Source: Planctomycetaceae bacterium (GTDB lineage Bacteria; Planctomycetota; Planctomycetia; Pirellulales; Pirellulaceae). From it: a DNA stretch of 57,879 nucleotides. Below the pieces are notes generated by a model, which did no database searches, was not told the DNA's origin, and saw only the letters and a program-made list of their open reading frames with translations. Within the stretch, counting starts at the first letter, position 1. Every line of letters begins with the position of its first letter. Shown piece after piece: positions 23,737 through 30,070 of this stretch. Made by a program: the position numbers and the translations under genes. The DNA is taken from NCBI GenBank assembly GCA_002862205.1, contig PKCN01000313.1, positions 1 through 57,879 on the forward strand, read 5' to 3'.

Positions 23737-24028
23737 CGCTGAGGGTGCCTCAAACCCGTTCATTGCCCCCTCCCAAGCCAGTAAATGTTCCGTCTGCTTT
23801 GCTGAACCCTTGCTGGCTTGCCACAGCGGGCATGCATGGCATGGGGGCCGGTTGGTTCGCAGGATGATCGGGGTGAGAGTGTCACCATTTCTTTCAGTGT
23901 CACGCGATTTCCGGCCACGTGCATGGGTTCCCGTTCCGGTAAATGGGGCCCACAATGTCCGTTCCGGGTCAAGCTCGTAAAGCTGACATGTTCCATGTTC
24001 TGTTCATCCTGAAATGAATTGCTTTGCC

Positions 24029-24098
24029 TCAGTCACCGTCCAAGTCTCAGTCACCATCGTCTCAGTCACCATCGTCTCAGTCACCATCGTCTCAGTCG
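24029..24098. repeat. Tandem repeat, 3 full copies of 15 bp plus partial flanking copies
   Basis: The unit tcagtcaccatcgtc occurs three times exactly (24047-24091), with a degenerate copy before and a 7-nt partial copy after. It lies just upstream of the chosen glycosyltransferase start. Because the unit is five codons long it keeps the upstream frame open, where it would read as repeats of Ser, Gln and Pro. Confidence 0.9.
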
Positions 24099-24140
24099 TT
24101 GCCTGGCTCTTGCGTTGCAAGTCAGGATGGACCACGAGCG

Positions 24141-24848
24141 ATGGTGGCTATTTGCACGTTCAATGAAGCCGAAAATATTGAGCTGATGATTTCCGGGCTC
24201 CGGCAGGCTTTGCCGCATGCAGACGTGATTGTGGTCGATGACAACTCACCCGATGGCACGGCTCAATTGGTCAAAGCGATGTCCGAGAATGACGCGTCTG
24301 TCCGTCTTTTGGTGAGGCAAGATGAACGAGGTTTGGGGAGTGCGATTCGCTTTGCGATGCAGCATGCCATTGATCATGATTACGATTATTTCATGAATCT
24401 TGATGGTGATTTGAGTCACAATCCCAAGCAGATGCAATTGTTGTTCAGCAGGGCGTTGCAAGACAGCGGTTTGGCTGTCGTTGTGGGATCACGTTATGTC
24501 ACAGGTGGACAAATCGTTGGTTGGCCGGTTCGTCGCAAACTCATGAGTCGAATGGTCAATGGTTTCGCAACAACCTGCTTGCGTTTGCCCGTTCGAGATT
24601 GCAGTGGATCGATGCGATGTTACCGGGTTGATGCTCTGGCCAAGCTTGGTCTGAAGAACTTGAGAGTGAATGGCTATGCCATTCTGGAGGAGGTTCTGTT
24701 GAGGCTGCATCAGCAGGGTGAGCAGATCGTTGAGGTTCCAATCACTTTCACTGAACGCGAACGCGGCCATAGCAAACTCACGATGTCAGAGGCGATGCGG
24801 TCGATGCTTCAAATCATTTCTTTGGCATTTCGCCGAAAAGTGGCTTGA
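24141..24848 (+). CDS. Family 2 glycosyltransferase, polyprenol-phosphate mannosyltransferase-like
   Basis: A GT-A fold enzyme that would transfer a sugar from a nucleotide donor to a polyprenyl phosphate at the inner membrane face. Motifs: an ICTFNEAENI start, VIVVDDNSPDGT for nucleotide binding, the NLDGDLSHNP acidic metal site, GSRYVTGG and RDCSGSMRCYR. It lacks the C-terminal transmembrane helices of some family members. I place the start at ATG 24141, where the family N-terminus begins and an AGGATGG lies upstream. The frame also runs back to a TTG at 24024 through the 15-bp tandem array, which would add 39 Ser/Gln/Pro-rich residues; I consider that less likely. Confidence 0.88.
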   Translation: MVAICTFNEAENIELMISGLRQALPHADVIVVDDNSPDGTAQLVKAMSENDASVRLLVRQDERGLGSAIRFAMQHAIDHDYDYFMNLDGDLSHNPKQMQLLFSRALQDSGLAVVVGSRYVTGGQIVGWPVRRKLMSRMVNGFATTCLRLPVRDCSGSMRCYRVDALAKLGLKNLRVNGYAILEEVLLRLHQQGEQIVEVPITFTERERGHSKLTMSEAMRSMLQIISLAFRRKVA

Positions 24849-25072: not shown

Positions 25073-27448
25073 GTGTTGAGCGGTACTCCCTCTGACGATC
25101 CATCTGGAACCGATGCAATGATGATGGACGGTGCTCCTGAGGAGTCTTACTCCTATGACGACGTGATCGTTCGTGGTTTCGTTGCGGCGACACTTTTTTG
25201 GGGTCTGTTGGCAGCCATCGGTGCTGTCTTTGTGACTCAAACTTTGTTGCATCCACGGCTTGATGCTGGGGTGGATTGGTTGAGCTTTGGGCGAATGCAG
25301 CCAGTCGGTGAAATGCTGTTTTTCACGGCATTCATCGGCAACGGCATCTTTGCTGGAATCTACTACAGTACTCAACGTCTCTGTAAGGCACGGATGTGGA
25401 ATGGGATGTTGAGTTGGATGCACCTTTTGAGCTGGCAAGCAATCATCGTTGCCGCTCTGGTAACCTTGCCCATGGGGATCACTCAAGGACGCGTCCATGG
25501 TGAAGCAGAGTGGCCGATCGATTTGGCGATAACACTCGTCTGGATTCTGTTCTTTGCGTCGAATTTTTTCATGACGTTGAGGCACCGTCGAGTGCCACGA
25601 ATGTATGTCTCGCTGTGGTTTTATGTTGCTGCTGTGGTGGCAATGGGGCTTGTCAATCTTTGTACACTTTTCGTTTTTCCTACGGGATTGTGGGAGAGTG
25701 ATTCATTGGCGACTGGCATGCAGGACGCATTACTGCAGGAATGGTATGGCCATAATGCTTTCCTGTTCCTGTTTATCGTGCCGGTTCTGGGGCTGGCTTA
25801 TTACTTTGTTCCCAAGGCACTGCAGCAGCCACTCCACAGTTACAAACTCACGATTGTCGGTTTTTGGACTCTGATATTTGCAGGTGCATGGGCTGCGCCT
25901 CAGCATTTGCATTACACGGCTCTGCCGGAATGGGCCTCAACTCTGGGAATGTTGTTTGGAGCCTTGCTTGGTGTGGCCGTGCTTGGCAACGTCAGCAATC
26001 TTCTGTCCACATGTCGCGAGTCACAGGTTCAGAAGCCTGCTGATCCCGCGATTCGTTTCATGAAGTGGGGAGTCGTGTTGCTGGGTCTGTATGCCTTTGA
26101 CGAAATTCTGTTAAGTGTAAAGACCATCCATGCACAAGTGGATTACACCGAGTGGATGACCGCGCACTTCCAGCTGGGCTGTCTTGGCTGCGGCGGAATG
26201 TTGGTTCTCGGCATGGCTTACTGGATGATACCAAAGTTGTTTCAAACCCAAATTGCGAGCAACAGAGCTGTTGGTTTGCATTTTTGGTTGGCAGCCACTG
26301 GGGTATTGCTGTGTGTGTTGCCAGGTTACGCCGCAGGCGTAGTTCAAAGTGGTGTTTGGAATGCCATGGATGATCTTGGGAACTTGAGATATGACTTTGC
26401 TGAGTCAACATCCTTCCTGAAAATGATGTGGTCGCTGCAAATGCTGGGTGGCTTGGCTTATGTGATGGGCTTTGTTGTGATGCTGGCCAACTATGCCAGA
26501 ACCTGGTGGAATCATGCGACTCCCTATGAAGTGCCACTCTATCATCAGGAGTCCAGTGACAAACAAAAGCGATTGATTTCATCTTTGGAGCCGGCCAGTG
26601 TGTTGGAGGCAGCTCCTGTCCTGAATCTTGCCAAAAAGGTAGATGTCTGGACGAGATTGGGTTGGCATCGGAGGTGGGAGGATGCTCCCCGAAAAATTGG
26701 CGTTCTTGTGGCCATGTTTGTTTTGCTGGCCTTCACCGTTGAAGTCGTGCCCATGTTCGTTTTTGCCAACAGCAACGCCCCGAAAATTGCTTCGGTCAAG
26801 CCGTTTACTCCTTTGGAATTATTGGGTCGACACATTTACCTCGAGGAAGGTTGTTCCAATTGCCATACCCAGATGGTCAGACCGCTCATGGCTGAGACAA
26901 AGCGGTATGGTGAATTCAGCCAACCGGGTGAGTTCATTTACGATCAACCTGCGCAATGGGGAAACCAGCGAATCGGACCTGACTTGGCGCGGGAATCAGG
27001 GAAGCAGACAAGTTTTTGGCATTGGCAGCATCTGGAAAATCCACGGCACAGTGATCCGGATTCCGCCATGCCCTCGTATCAATATTTGCTGGATCGACCC
27101 ATCAATCTCGAGCAAGCCAATGAGTTGGTGCAGGCGGCCCGAGAAAGTGGAATTCCTTACGATATTGATTTGGACGGCATGCAGGCAAGTATCAGCAAGC
27201 AGGCAGAGCGGATCGCAGCAGATATCGTTTCAAAAGGTGGAACGTTTCGACGCGGTAATCTGATGACTTTCGATGCTCAAGCCGTTGCGCTCATCGCTTA
27301 TCTGCAGAGGTTGGGCGCAGATCTTACAGCACCGGCGGTGGCTGAAAAAACAGACGATGCTGCCAAAGTAAATGATCAGGATGTTAGTGATGCCATCGAT
27401 CCCTCGGCAGGTTCTGATAGGAACAAGGTGGTCAGTTTCATACCGTAA
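25073..27448 (+). CDS. Fused CcoN-CcoO (cbb3 oxidase subunit I/II) homologue with altered active site
   Basis: An integral membrane protein of 791 aa. Residues about 28-480 follow CcoN nearly gap-free (WYGHN, HLHYTALPEW); about 575-760 follow CcoO with an intact heme c site (Cys594, Cys597, His598) and the SAMPSY methionine segment. Compared with canonical CcoN, the low-spin heme b histidines are Gly79 (in GRMQPVGEM) and Gln367 (in WMTAHFQLG), one CuB histidine is Gln277 (APQHLHY), and the cross-linked tyrosine is Gly271. His227, His278 and the heme b3-type His365 remain. Normal O2 reduction is therefore doubtful; another redox role or electron transfer through CcoO is possible. The start is GTG 25073; ATG 25118 is an alternative. 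The CcoP-like gene follows. Confidence 0.9.
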   Translation: MLSGTPSDDPSGTDAMMMDGAPEESYSYDDVIVRGFVAATLFWGLLAAIGAVFVTQTLLHPRLDAGVDWLSFGRMQPVGEMLFFTAFIGNGIFAGIYYSTQRLCKARMWNGMLSWMHLLSWQAIIVAALVTLPMGITQGRVHGEAEWPIDLAITLVWILFFASNFFMTLRHRRVPRMYVSLWFYVAAVVAMGLVNLCTLFVFPTGLWESDSLATGMQDALLQEWYGHNAFLFLFIVPVLGLAYYFVPKALQQPLHSYKLTIVGFWTLIFAGAWAAPQHLHYTALPEWASTLGMLFGALLGVAVLGNVSNLLSTCRESQVQKPADPAIRFMKWGVVLLGLYAFDEILLSVKTIHAQVDYTEWMTAHFQLGCLGCGGMLVLGMAYWMIPKLFQTQIASNRAVGLHFWLAATGVLLCVLPGYAAGVVQSGVWNAMDDLGNLRYDFAESTSFLKMMWSLQMLGGLAYVMGFVVMLANYARTWWNHATPYEVPLYHQESSDKQKRLISSLEPASVLEAAPVLNLAKKVDVWTRLGWHRRWEDAPRKIGVLVAMFVLLAFTVEVVPMFVFANSNAPKIASVKPFTPLELLGRHIYLEEGCSNCHTQMVRPLMAETKRYGEFSQPGEFIYDQPAQWGNQRIGPDLARESGKQTSFWHWQHLENPRHSDPDSAMPSYQYLLDRPINLEQANELVQAARESGIPYDIDLDGMQASISKQAERIAADIVSKGGTFRRGNLMTFDAQAVALIAYLQRLGADLTAPAVAEKTDDAAKVNDQDVSDAIDPSAGSDRNKVVSFIP

Positions 27449-27697: not shown

Positions 27698-28351
27698 ATG
27701 AACGATTCAAATCCGGAATCCTCCGAATCAAACGAAGTACCGCCAGCAACCCAGTTGACTGATGATTCGTTTGATGGGATTCAACAGTACGACCATCCAC
27801 TACCCAGTTGGTGGATATGGCTGGTTTTTGGGTGTCTCGCTTTCGCACCCCCGTACATCTGGTTCTATCACAATGGCACCGAAGGTCGGTCACTCGCGGA
27901 ACAACACGACCAGCAATTGGCCAAAAACCTGAAATTGCAATTCAGTCAAATGGGTGAACTGACCGCAGACCGGGAAACGTTGGTTCGTTTCCTGAATGAA
28001 GAATCATGGTTAAGAGTGGGACGTTCTATCTTCAAAACAAATTGTGTTGCCTGTCACGGCCGTGATGGTGCTGGGCAGGTAGGACCAAATCTGCAGGATG
28101 ACCATTACAAGAACGTCAGTGACATTGCCGACATTCTTACCGTGTTGAACAACGGGGCCAATGCGGGTGCCATGCCGGCATGGAAGTCAAAGTTGTCGTC
28201 CAATGAAATTGTTCTGGTTTCTGCTTACGTTGCAAGTTTGCGCGGGACGAGTGATGGATCCGGCAAGCCAGCGGAGGGAAGAAAAATTCCATCCTGGCCG
28301 CAGCCTTCTCCCAAAAACGAGATAGGCGGAGAATCAGGCACGCAGGGGTAA
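27698..28351 (+). CDS. CcoP-like membrane-anchored cytochrome c, single heme
   Basis: A 217-aa protein with the CcoP N-terminus: DGIQQYDHPLPSWW followed by one membrane helix (about 35-52). A periplasmic cytochrome c domain has CVACH (about 118-122) and the distal ligand segment GAMPAW. True CcoP has two heme c domains; this one has a single CxxCH and ends soon after the SLRGT motif in a Pro-rich tail. It follows the CcoN-CcoO fusion by about 250 bases, and GAGGAA lies before the ATG. The two probably form one complex. No ccoQ, ccoG, ccoH, ccoI or ccoS gene is nearby, so assembly factors would have to come from elsewhere. Confidence 0.87.
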   Translation: MNDSNPESSESNEVPPATQLTDDSFDGIQQYDHPLPSWWIWLVFGCLAFAPPYIWFYHNGTEGRSLAEQHDQQLAKNLKLQFSQMGELTADRETLVRFLNEESWLRVGRSIFKTNCVACHGRDGAGQVGPNLQDDHYKNVSDIADILTVLNNGANAGAMPAWKSKLSSNEIVLVSAYVASLRGTSDGSGKPAEGRKIPSWPQPSPKNEIGGESGTQG

Positions 28352-28693
28352 CATGGATCGCTGCTGAAGACAGTTGACCTGCGTGACGCGTGTTGCGTGA
28401 TTATGCTTGGTTACTTTGTGGGCGACGGATTCGCCAAACACACCTGCTGCTGGCATGCAGGTGTCTGGTATGCAGGTGTCTGGTATGCAGGTGTCTGGCA
28501 TACAGGTATCTGGCATACAGGTAACTGGCCGGAAATTTCCATCATCATGCGGCCAGAGGTTTTGAAACCATCTGTTTGATGGTTCGGTGTCTTGTGAATT
28601 TGTGCGTTAAAATCGGGGCTGATTGAGGGCACCAGCGTATTGCACTGGTCCCTCCTTGGATTTCCACACACTTGGTGAGCACGAGGTGAGCTG
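28352..28693. other. Intergenic region with tandem array between CcoP-like and Tat CE4-like genes
   Basis: 342 bases holding the 5 x 15-bp array described separately. Because that unit is five codons long, frames stay open on both strands, but I see no start signals that support a gene. Confidence 0.5.
28451..28525. repeat. Tandem repeat, 5 x 15 bp, diverging
   Basis: Copies of tggcatgcaggtgtc: the first three differ only at c/t in the fourth base, while the fourth and fifth have further changes (tacaggtatc, tacaggtaac). The graded divergence from one end to the other suggests growth at one side. Confidence 0.92.
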
Positions 28694-30070
28694 ATGCAGA
28701 CTCGACGGTCTTTCCTGGCAACCGGGATCAGTGTTGCAGCGAACAGTGGACTGGTGAGGTTGGTCGCAGAGGATGACGCTCGAATCACATCCCGGCGGCC
28801 GGCGGGAACTGGACGGGAAGCACAGGGGCTGGAGGTGTTGATGCCTCGGAATCGTGTTCCCTTGTCCTTTGTCATTGATGACTCAACCTGTCTCGTGAAT
28901 ATGGGGCACTTCTGCACTCCTCAGTTCGCCGAAGCCCTGCCCCATCGGACTGAATATAAAAAGCCATGGCGTGAGTGGCCGCGTGAAATCCCTGATCAGT
29001 TTGTTCGCAAGTTCGGTGAGTGGTGTGCGGATCGGGGAGTACGGGGAAAGTACAGCATTGTTCCCTACCCCGCCTGTGTCGGCTGGGTTGATCGTGAGAT
29101 GCCCGGTTGGTCGCGTCATCAGTTACAGGAAAGTTTGAAGCTGGTACGCGAATTGATGGTTCCCAACTGGGATATTCATCCTGAAATGATCACGCACACT
29201 CGCGTCATTGATTTGAAGACGGGGCGACCCATGAACACCATCAATGCCGGGACGATGGAGAATTCGTATCCGCAGGAAAAGAAAAGTGTCGATGAGCTGG
29301 CTTCCTATCTGGCGTACGCCTTGCGCATTCTCGAACGCTGCGAGCTTCCTTGTGAGGGAATCACTACCCCGGGAGGGTTTGGAAACCTTGTGAAGAGTGA
29401 ATTGTCCCTAGCGGTGGATCAAGCCGTGCGAGATGTTTACGCTGTCGATCTGCCGCATTACTTCAAATACGTTCGCACGGGAGACCAAAGCACCGAGCCG
29501 ATACTGGAACATTTGCGCGGAGTGGGCACCGACGGACTGAGATTGACGGTTAATGTGCCCGCTGGAACGGGAGACTGGTTTGGAGGTTGGCAGGGTGACC
29601 GTGTTCCCGAAGCAGATCGCTACTGCAATCAAGACGCAACCGCAGGCAGGATGGTTGAGCTGATTGAACGTCGGCAACCCGCCATCATGCTGTGCCATTG
29701 GCCTGGAATCTACAGCAATGGTACGGAAGCGGGATTTAAAGCGTTTCAGAAAATTGTCACTTCAATCGAGGCACGCTACCGGGACCGGACACTGTGGATG
29801 AAAATGAGCGAAATTGGCCGCTATTGGGCCGCACGAGAATTGACCAGGTTGAATCGTATTGGGAAGCAGATGACGTTCGATGCTCCATTTGCTGTGGATA
29901 ACTTCACGTTTCGGATTGCGAATGCAAACGGTCCGGCACACTTGGATCTGAATTTGAACGAGGTCACTGACATGTCCGCACTTGCTGCAGGAACTTGGTA
30001 TCAAGCAGAGCAGGATCAGATTGTCTGCATCAACTTGCCGCGGGGGCGAACCTTGCTGCAGTGGGATTAA
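28694..30070 (+). CDS. Tat-exported protein resembling CE4 polysaccharide deacetylases
   Basis: A 458-aa protein with a twin-arginine signal (TRRSFLATG), so exported folded. The body has the layout of the NodB/CE4 fold: an acidic pair in LSFVIDDST (Asp62, Asp63), a histidine pair in DIHPEMITHT (His162, His168), TTPGGFG (about 224-230) in the place of motif 3, and IMLCHWPG late in the sequence in the place of motif 5. These match CE4 only loosely, so activity as a deacetylase or related carbohydrate hydrolase is tentative. A good GAGGTG site precedes the ATG. The gene is alone, with a DUF1559-type gene on the opposite strand downstream. Confidence 0.75.
   Translation: MQTRRSFLATGISVAANSGLVRLVAEDDARITSRRPAGTGREAQGLEVLMPRNRVPLSFVIDDSTCLVNMGHFCTPQFAEALPHRTEYKKPWREWPREIPDQFVRKFGEWCADRGVRGKYSIVPYPACVGWVDREMPGWSRHQLQESLKLVRELMVPNWDIHPEMITHTRVIDLKTGRPMNTINAGTMENSYPQEKKSVDELASYLAYALRILERCELPCEGITTPGGFGNLVKSELSLAVDQAVRDVYAVDLPHYFKYVRTGDQSTEPILEHLRGVGTDGLRLTVNVPAGTGDWFGGWQGDRVPEADRYCNQDATAGRMVELIERRQPAIMLCHWPGIYSNGTEAGFKAFQKIVTSIEARYRDRTLWMKMSEIGRYWAARELTRLNRIGKQMTFDAPFAVDNFTFRIANANGPAHLDLNLNEVTDMSALAAGTWYQAEQDQIVCINLPRGRTLLQWD

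Follow-up and report, generated by a model that had tools for sequence, protein, structure and literature searches.

The window, a 57,879-nucleotide stretch of DNA from a Planctomycetaceae bacterium, carries a cbb3-type ccoNO fusion gene in which the metal sites of the CcoN half have been dismantled. Judged from the sequence, both the O2-reducing site and the machinery filling it are gone, while the heme sites of CcoO and CcoP are kept, and the loss of catalysis is strongly supported. The protein is probably a pseudo-oxidase, catalytically dead, which would persist as a c-heme complex that transfers electrons at the membrane and leaves O2 reduction to an aa3-type oxidase. The usual view of heme-copper oxidases is that they work all or nothing, and genes annotated as ccoNO or cbb3 tend to be read as evidence of high-affinity O2 respiration; automated models still label the window gene a cbb3 oxidase subunit despite its lost catalytic site. 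A search of the open-access literature by title and abstract start, with subscription journals and preprints outside its scope, found no description of a ligand-less CcoN. The features of the locus are as follows.

25073..27448, + strand: ccoNO fusion with dismantled CcoN metal sites, 791 aa, GTG start
25073..26512, + strand: CcoN half, residues 1-480 (Pfam match and invariant-position count)
25307..25309, + strand: Gly79 at the low-spin heme b ligand (His60), from alignment with solved CcoN
25751..25753, + strand: His227 at the CuB ligand (His207), kept; Arg in one relative (alignment)
25883..25885, + strand: Gly271 at the cross-link tyrosine (Tyr251), from alignment
25901..25906, + strand: Gln277-His278 at the CuB ligands (His257-His258), from alignment
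26165..26167, + strand: His365, the heme b3 proximal ligand (His347), kept (alignment)
26171..26173, + strand: Gln367 at the second low-spin heme b ligand (His349), from alignment
26660..27328, + strand: CcoO half, residues 530-752, mono-heme c (Pfam match)
26852..26866, + strand: CcoO heme c motif CSNCH, residues 594-598 (sequence)
27698..28351, + strand: ccoP, 217 aa, FixP_N membrane anchor and one heme c, CVACH (Pfam and sequence)
28352..28693, no strand: site of the missing ccoG-(ccoH)-DsbD_2-ccoI block (comparison with the intact loci L059-L061)
28694..30070, + strand: conserved downstream gene without Pfam or NCBIfam match, marking the junction of the missing block

The open frame of 791 codons at 25073-27448 (+) has no internal stop. 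A Pfam search matched residues 32-461 to PF00115 (COX1/CcoN) and residues 532-750 to PF02433 (FixO), and PRK14485, the NCBIfam model for bifunctional CcoNO, scored 753 bits over residues 24-760, short of the 1080 bits that it requires. The CcoN half aligns near-gaplessly with the solved CcoN chains 9g6b_A and 3mk7_A. The bracketed site numbers above are those of Pseudomonas stutzeri CcoN, with the low-spin heme b, heme b3 and tyrosine positions as in canonical CcoN. The names of the three CuB ligands follow an excerpt of PMC3578206. At these sites, the window CcoN is missing the bis-histidine pair of the low-spin heme b (Gly79 and Gln367) and the cross-link tyrosine (Gly271), and two of the three CuB histidines are present, Gln277 being the replaced one. 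The heme c site of CcoO is intact in both its CxxCH and Met666, and a CcoP with a single heme c is found in intact relatives as well. The preliminary description had named the same four replacements, the retention of His227, His278 and His365 and an intact CcoO CxxCH, and the alignment with solved CcoN confirms this observation. An alignment artefact is ruled out by the near-gapless match to solved CcoN and by MAFFT alignment of the genus, which gave the same columns. Sequencing or assembly error is likewise ruled out, and so is chance: eight assemblies agree, the window's own and seven others of the genus in which the same low-spin pair and tyrosine are lost.

CcoNO was present in 21 of the 22 genomes searched in the window's genus, eight of them intact, eight without the low-spin pair and five that keep the pair but have neither the tyrosine nor the full set of CuB ligands. 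The branch without the pair consists of the window genome (G000), G002, G005, G007, G008, G010, G017 and G020; Gly or Ala stands at the first low-spin position, Gln, Tyr or Glu at the second, and Gly replaces the tyrosine in all eight. In the sister lineage (G004, G006, G009, G015 and G019), His60, His347 and His349 are all kept, the tyrosine is gone, and one to three CuB histidines are gone in differing combinations. The CuB histidines kept by the window also vary within its own branch, with Arg/Leu at 277/278 in four of the eight rows and Arg at 227 in one; the two retained histidines are no conserved feature of the group. The altered sequences form one clade with an SH-aLRT of 100, nested among intact sequences of the genus, in keeping with the monophyletic, conserved group that the preliminary description had envisaged. 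This tree covers 12 of the 13 altered genomes, with the fragmentary G002 and the very long paralogue rows omitted; when included, the paralogue rows join the altered group, a result for which the program flags possible long-branch attraction. All trees were built by a quick method, and the placement of the long-branched rows L148-L152 and L159 is unsafe. Intact, copper-less and heme b ligand-less forms coexist in the clade, a natural series that begins with a complete cbb3 and ends with a complex stripped of heme and copper, making the order of dismantling and the residual selection testable.

Intact loci have the gene order ccoNO-ccoP-ccoG-(ccoH)-DsbD_2 protein-ccoI (families verified on L062). 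At altered loci, ccoP adjoins ccoNO wherever the locus extends far enough, and immediately after it stands the conserved gene found behind ccoI in L059-L061; at the locus level, the ccoH-type gene is absent as well. In whole-genome searches of the 22 genomes of the genus, we found ccoG (TIGR02745) above its cut-off in 8, a CcoI ortholog at at least 650 bits in 9 (the next best P-type ATPase scoring 308 bits) and CcoS/FixS in 9. All three are present in each of the eight intact-site genomes, and the ninth genome with CcoI and CcoS, G014 (74% complete), yielded no CcoNO. In the same searches, none of the 13 altered genomes has ccoG, a CcoI ortholog or CcoS. Two of the 13 are less than 80% complete (G007, 77%, and G009); G000, where none of the three was found, is 98.7% complete with 7.77 Mb in 451 contigs. 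As the 13 genomes form one clade, the maturation loss counts as one evolutionary event in the genus and not as 13. The five sister genomes keep all three heme b histidines without CcoS, which suggests that heme b is perhaps inserted otherwise.

Eight of the altered genomes (G000, G004, G005, G007, G009, G015, G017 and G019) gave no P-type ATPase resembling CcoI at an E-value of 0.001, with intact relatives giving 4 to 10 matches, and a wider loss of copper ATPases in these eight is possible. On the upstream side of ccoNO lies a glycosyltransferase family 2 gene (24024-24848, +) whose longest frame opens with a run of SQSPS repeats; its relatives occupy the same place 5' of ccoNO in many genomes of the genus. 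Relatives of the downstream gene (28694-30070, +) also adjoin ccoNO in altered paralogue loci of another genus, g47 (L151, L159 and L254).

We found no second, intact cbb3 oxidase in G000, the window gene being its sole PF00115 match. The genome has an aa3-type COX3 gene on contig C221, which starts just upstream of COX3, at ctaE, and no aa3 CtaD was found in it. In relatives, ctaD stands directly before ctaE, so the position of the contig edge would explain why G000 has no second PF00115 gene. The aa3-type oxidase is likely the terminal oxidase, and we infer the CtaD of G000 from this edge. Six of the eight genomes of the window's branch (G002, G005, G008, G010, G017 and G020) have a further oxidase cluster, in which COX1 and COX3 are fused and a cytochrome b is encoded; it was not found in G000 or in the 77% complete G007, so replacement by this second, aa3/bc1-like cluster as a general explanation does not account for the window. 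The cluster is located at L211:4548-11017 and in L213, its cytochrome b carries a CxxCH, and it occurs in only 6 of the 22 genomes of the genus, every one with an altered ccoNO.

The gene is under purifying selection. We obtained dN/dS ratios of 0.09-0.10 (NG86) and 0.13-0.17 (YN00) for the CcoN half in five pairs of the window's branch, against 0.016-0.056 (NG86) in four pairs of intact CcoN; the altered half is 2-6 times less constrained than its intact relatives. For the whole ccoNO, two genome pairs gave 0.117 and 0.127, and eight neighbouring genes, six of them available in the second pair, ranged from 0.035 to 0.192 in the same pairs: ccoNO is constrained like ordinary genes and less than an intact oxidase. 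The lost maturation genes and the lower constraint on the CcoN half are what one would see in the slow decay of a gene released from selection. We hold this to be rather improbable, as dN/dS is near 0.1 and not 1, the frame is open and full-length in all 12 altered loci with the whole gene on one contig (G002 is split by a contig end), and amino-acid identity inside the window's branch falls to about 66%, indicating long persistence. A dN/dS ratio not near 1 and a window gene with no frameshift or stop speak against a pseudogene, and the earlier view that the gene is well kept and not decaying holds with a ratio of about 0.1.

The two halves of the protein have fared differently. Defining as invariant the positions identical in at least 95% of 35 intact-site sequences, we found 60 of 233 CcoN positions replaced in all eight altered rows and 105 kept, and 4 of 71 CcoO positions replaced in all eight and 59 kept in all, which argues that selection released the b-heme/copper core more than the c-heme part. 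Summed over the invariant sites that are replaced, side-chain volume changed by a net -357 cubic angstroms, with no net filling of the heme cavity, which speaks against a simple cavity-filling account. Purifying selection on a CcoN with lost metal sites could serve a non-redox role: the complex might be a structural or regulatory part of, for instance, a respiratory supercomplex, or might transmit redox signals. Structure alone would not, however, need the two heme c sites (CxxCH and Met), which are kept in all readable altered rows, and we consider such a role unlikely.

The proximal histidine of heme b3, His365, is kept in all eight rows of the window's branch and in all five sister rows. 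It could hold a five-coordinate heme b whose open face binds O2, NO, CO or peroxide, making the protein a heme-only gas sensor or peroxidase. Yet with the low-spin heme missing, electrons would need to bypass its place, no CcoS was found, and Gln has taken the place of Arg456, a residue that the intact rows conserve, in all eight altered rows; with 105 of 233 CcoN invariants kept anyway, one kept histidine is unremarkable, and the same histidine is lost in four of the eight rows of other degenerate lineages. A sensor or peroxidase function therefore appears doubtful.

An AlphaFold2 model built with 91 alignment rows reached a pLDDT of 89.4 and a pTM of 0.90 (pLDDT 34.4 with seven rows only), and Foldseek placed its CcoN half on 3mk7_A with a target TM of 0.97, rmsd of 1.5 and 36% identity. 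The alignment under the model consists mostly of intact-site proteins, so the predicted fold is no independent evidence; the model indicates compatibility with the CcoN fold and not its retention. The closeness of this model to 3mk7_A is also what could be said for an enzyme that still reduces O2 or NO with other ligands. We regard that as very improbable: histidines at the CuB positions vary among close relatives, ccoG, the CcoI ortholog and CcoS are missing, and a screen of H, M, C, K and Y over CcoN residues 24-480 of the altered group found only Cys197, Cys414 and Lys450 newly invariant and no newly fixed substitute histidine. NorB-type nitric oxide reductases have three histidines for FeB at the CuB-ligand positions; the window has two of the three at the aligned positions, and these are not conserved in its relatives. 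The preliminary description had concluded that the complex cannot reduce O2 in the usual way, which the ligand losses support, and had offered a gas or NO enzyme, a sensor or an electron-transfer module as its function. The module built on the CcoO and CcoP hemes fits best, and a new gas or NO enzyme is unsupported, as the retained ligands vary or are lost in the closest relatives, the group has fixed no new histidine, and the genes for inserting copper and heme are missing. That description had overlooked these missing maturation genes, the sister lineage without the CuB site and tyrosine but with the low-spin pair, and the losses in other genera.

To place these losses in the family, we tallied 144 CcoNO rows from 138 genomes, out of 170 with a match among 241, at seven columns (His60, His207, Tyr251, His257, His258, His347 and His349, in this order). 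The 137 rows complete at all seven, G194 and six more being incomplete, comprised 114 intact HHYHHHH rows (112 genomes) and 23 altered ones (23 genomes). The tally omits the distant heme-copper genes L160-L166, L088-L126, L219 and L216 together with duplicates and G251; L088-L126, L219 and L216 were checked apart, and the G251 gene was not extracted. The CcoO and ligand reading omits L001-L053 (short-flank copies or aa3-type genes), and L073-L080 yielded no CcoN. Outside the genus, the altered rows are G185 (QNTRQHQ), G217 (QSTRQHQ), G213 (HEGRLHD), G186 (YQGRLRW), G207 (SQGRYQW), G228 (FHGRSRL), G223 (PHGRWHY), G183 (LHSHQSQ), G109 (HQYHYHH) and G164, where Cys in place of the tyrosine is the sole change. 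Six of these genomes (G185, G217, G186, G207, G213 and G228) carry an intact copy beside the altered one, and the CcoO CxxCH and Met are present in every altered row with a readable CcoO part. The CcoN halves of G185 and G217 gave a dN/dS of 0.14-0.18. In the tree, G183 groups with its intact congeners and G164 falls among intact g11 rows; G109 joins the altered clade of the genus on a long branch, leaving its independence unsure.

We extended the ccoG test to 25 more genomes of the family as independent cases. The four in which the only CcoNO seen is altered (G109, G164, G183 and G223) are without ccoG, and all seven tested congeners of G183 have it. Among the tested genomes with an intact copy read, 15 of 19 have ccoG over the cut-off; it is absent in G213, G117 and G199 and a fragment only in G131, so a genome without ccoG need not have an altered site. 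In g11, the CcoN of L174 (G117) and L171 (G164), both from genomes without ccoG, has AHAHSAA or AHVHTAA replacing AHVHSGA, and these are possibly early steps of the same decay. In g47, a diheme cytochrome c gene comes next after the altered ccoNO-ccoP pair in all four genomes whose sequence extends far enough downstream (G186, G207, G213 and G223). The diheme protein was rejected as a partner of these degenerate paralogues, having relatives in all 22 genomes of the window's genus, whether their CcoNO is intact or not; a linkage of the g47 paralogue to ctaA and SCO1, seen in G207 and not in G186 or G223, was not used. The distant heme-copper genes L160-L163, L164 and L165-L166 (25-30% identity to CcoN) keep all seven ligand columns, and L160-L163 are unfused; the family search placed a FixO-like match near them.

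The pseudo-oxidase reading brings together the ligand losses, the absent maturation genes, the single altered clade, the low dN/dS, the conservation of CcoO, the adjacent ccoP, the similar losses elsewhere in the family and the aa3-type COX3 of G000. The sequences show that the ancestor of the 13 genomes lost the ccoGHIS-type maturation set and the tyrosine, and that the CuB ligands eroded differently lineage by lineage; in the window's branch of eight genomes, the low-spin heme b pair was lost as well, with the heme c sites of CcoO and CcoP retained and the gene held under purifying selection. In the proposed reading, CcoN would now serve chiefly to scaffold the complex in the membrane and would bind one heme b at most, through His365. 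For the relay and its partners, we infer that the hemes c of CcoO and CcoP may be reduced by a quinol:cytochrome c oxidoreductase and may then hand the electrons on to a different acceptor in the periplasm, for which the cytochrome c/CuA side of the aa3-type oxidase is the likeliest candidate. Against this relay, and against a stable complex, stands the loss of the ccoH-type gene from the locus, as CcoH is reported in part of PMC8267372 to be needed for assembly in Rhodobacter capsulatus and Campylobacter jejuni. The weaker constraint on the CcoN half, the non-redox role that the selection could serve, the heme b histidines kept by the sister genomes without CcoS and the CtaD not found in G000 also count against it. 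More generally, though this is a tentative proposal, complex IV might be convertible to a membrane cytochrome complex that is copper-free, poor in heme b and put to a new use, along a reproducible route in which the insertion genes go first, then the tyrosine and CuB ligands and then the low-spin pair, and which has been taken more than once in the family, also by duplication beside an intact oxidase.

Among known systems, the window protein is closest to the cbb3-type (C-family) oxidase of the bifunctional CcoNO kind (PRK14485 / NF011053), which it resembles in fold, length, fusion, CcoO heme c, the neighbouring FixP_N-type CcoP and ancestry, and from which it differs in lacking the low-spin heme b pair, the tyrosine, one CuB ligand, ccoG, CcoI and CcoS. 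The fused cbb3 of Nitrospina gracilis also has an unusual residue at the CuB site, but the change there is at Trp203, and the excerpt of PMC3578206 describes most of the usual sites for heme b and copper as present. The cytochrome bd-like oxidases of Nitrospinae are heme-copper-like with Gln for a CuB histidine and Phe for the high-spin heme histidine, and show conserved synteny with di- and triheme cytochromes c, in the sections of PMC8026999 used here; they belong to another family and have lost the high-spin ligand, whereas the window gene has lost the low-spin pair and the tyrosine. On maturation, CcoG is described as a cupric reductase and CcoI as passing copper towards CuB via SenC (PMC8475189, in part), and heme b, heme b3 and CuB are all reported to depend on CcoS (PMC8267372, in part). 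The same text states that CcoO is still inserted in C. jejuni after deletion of ccoS or ccoI, and that R. capsulatus without CcoS has a CcoNOQP complex that is present but inactive (citing Koch 2000 and Kulajta 2006). That assembled, inactive complex resembles the state of the window, which differs in being natural and fixed in a clade, in the subsequent loss of the ligands themselves and in the loss of the ccoH-type gene; the altered clade is a natural counterpart of the laboratory cbb3 assembly mutants.
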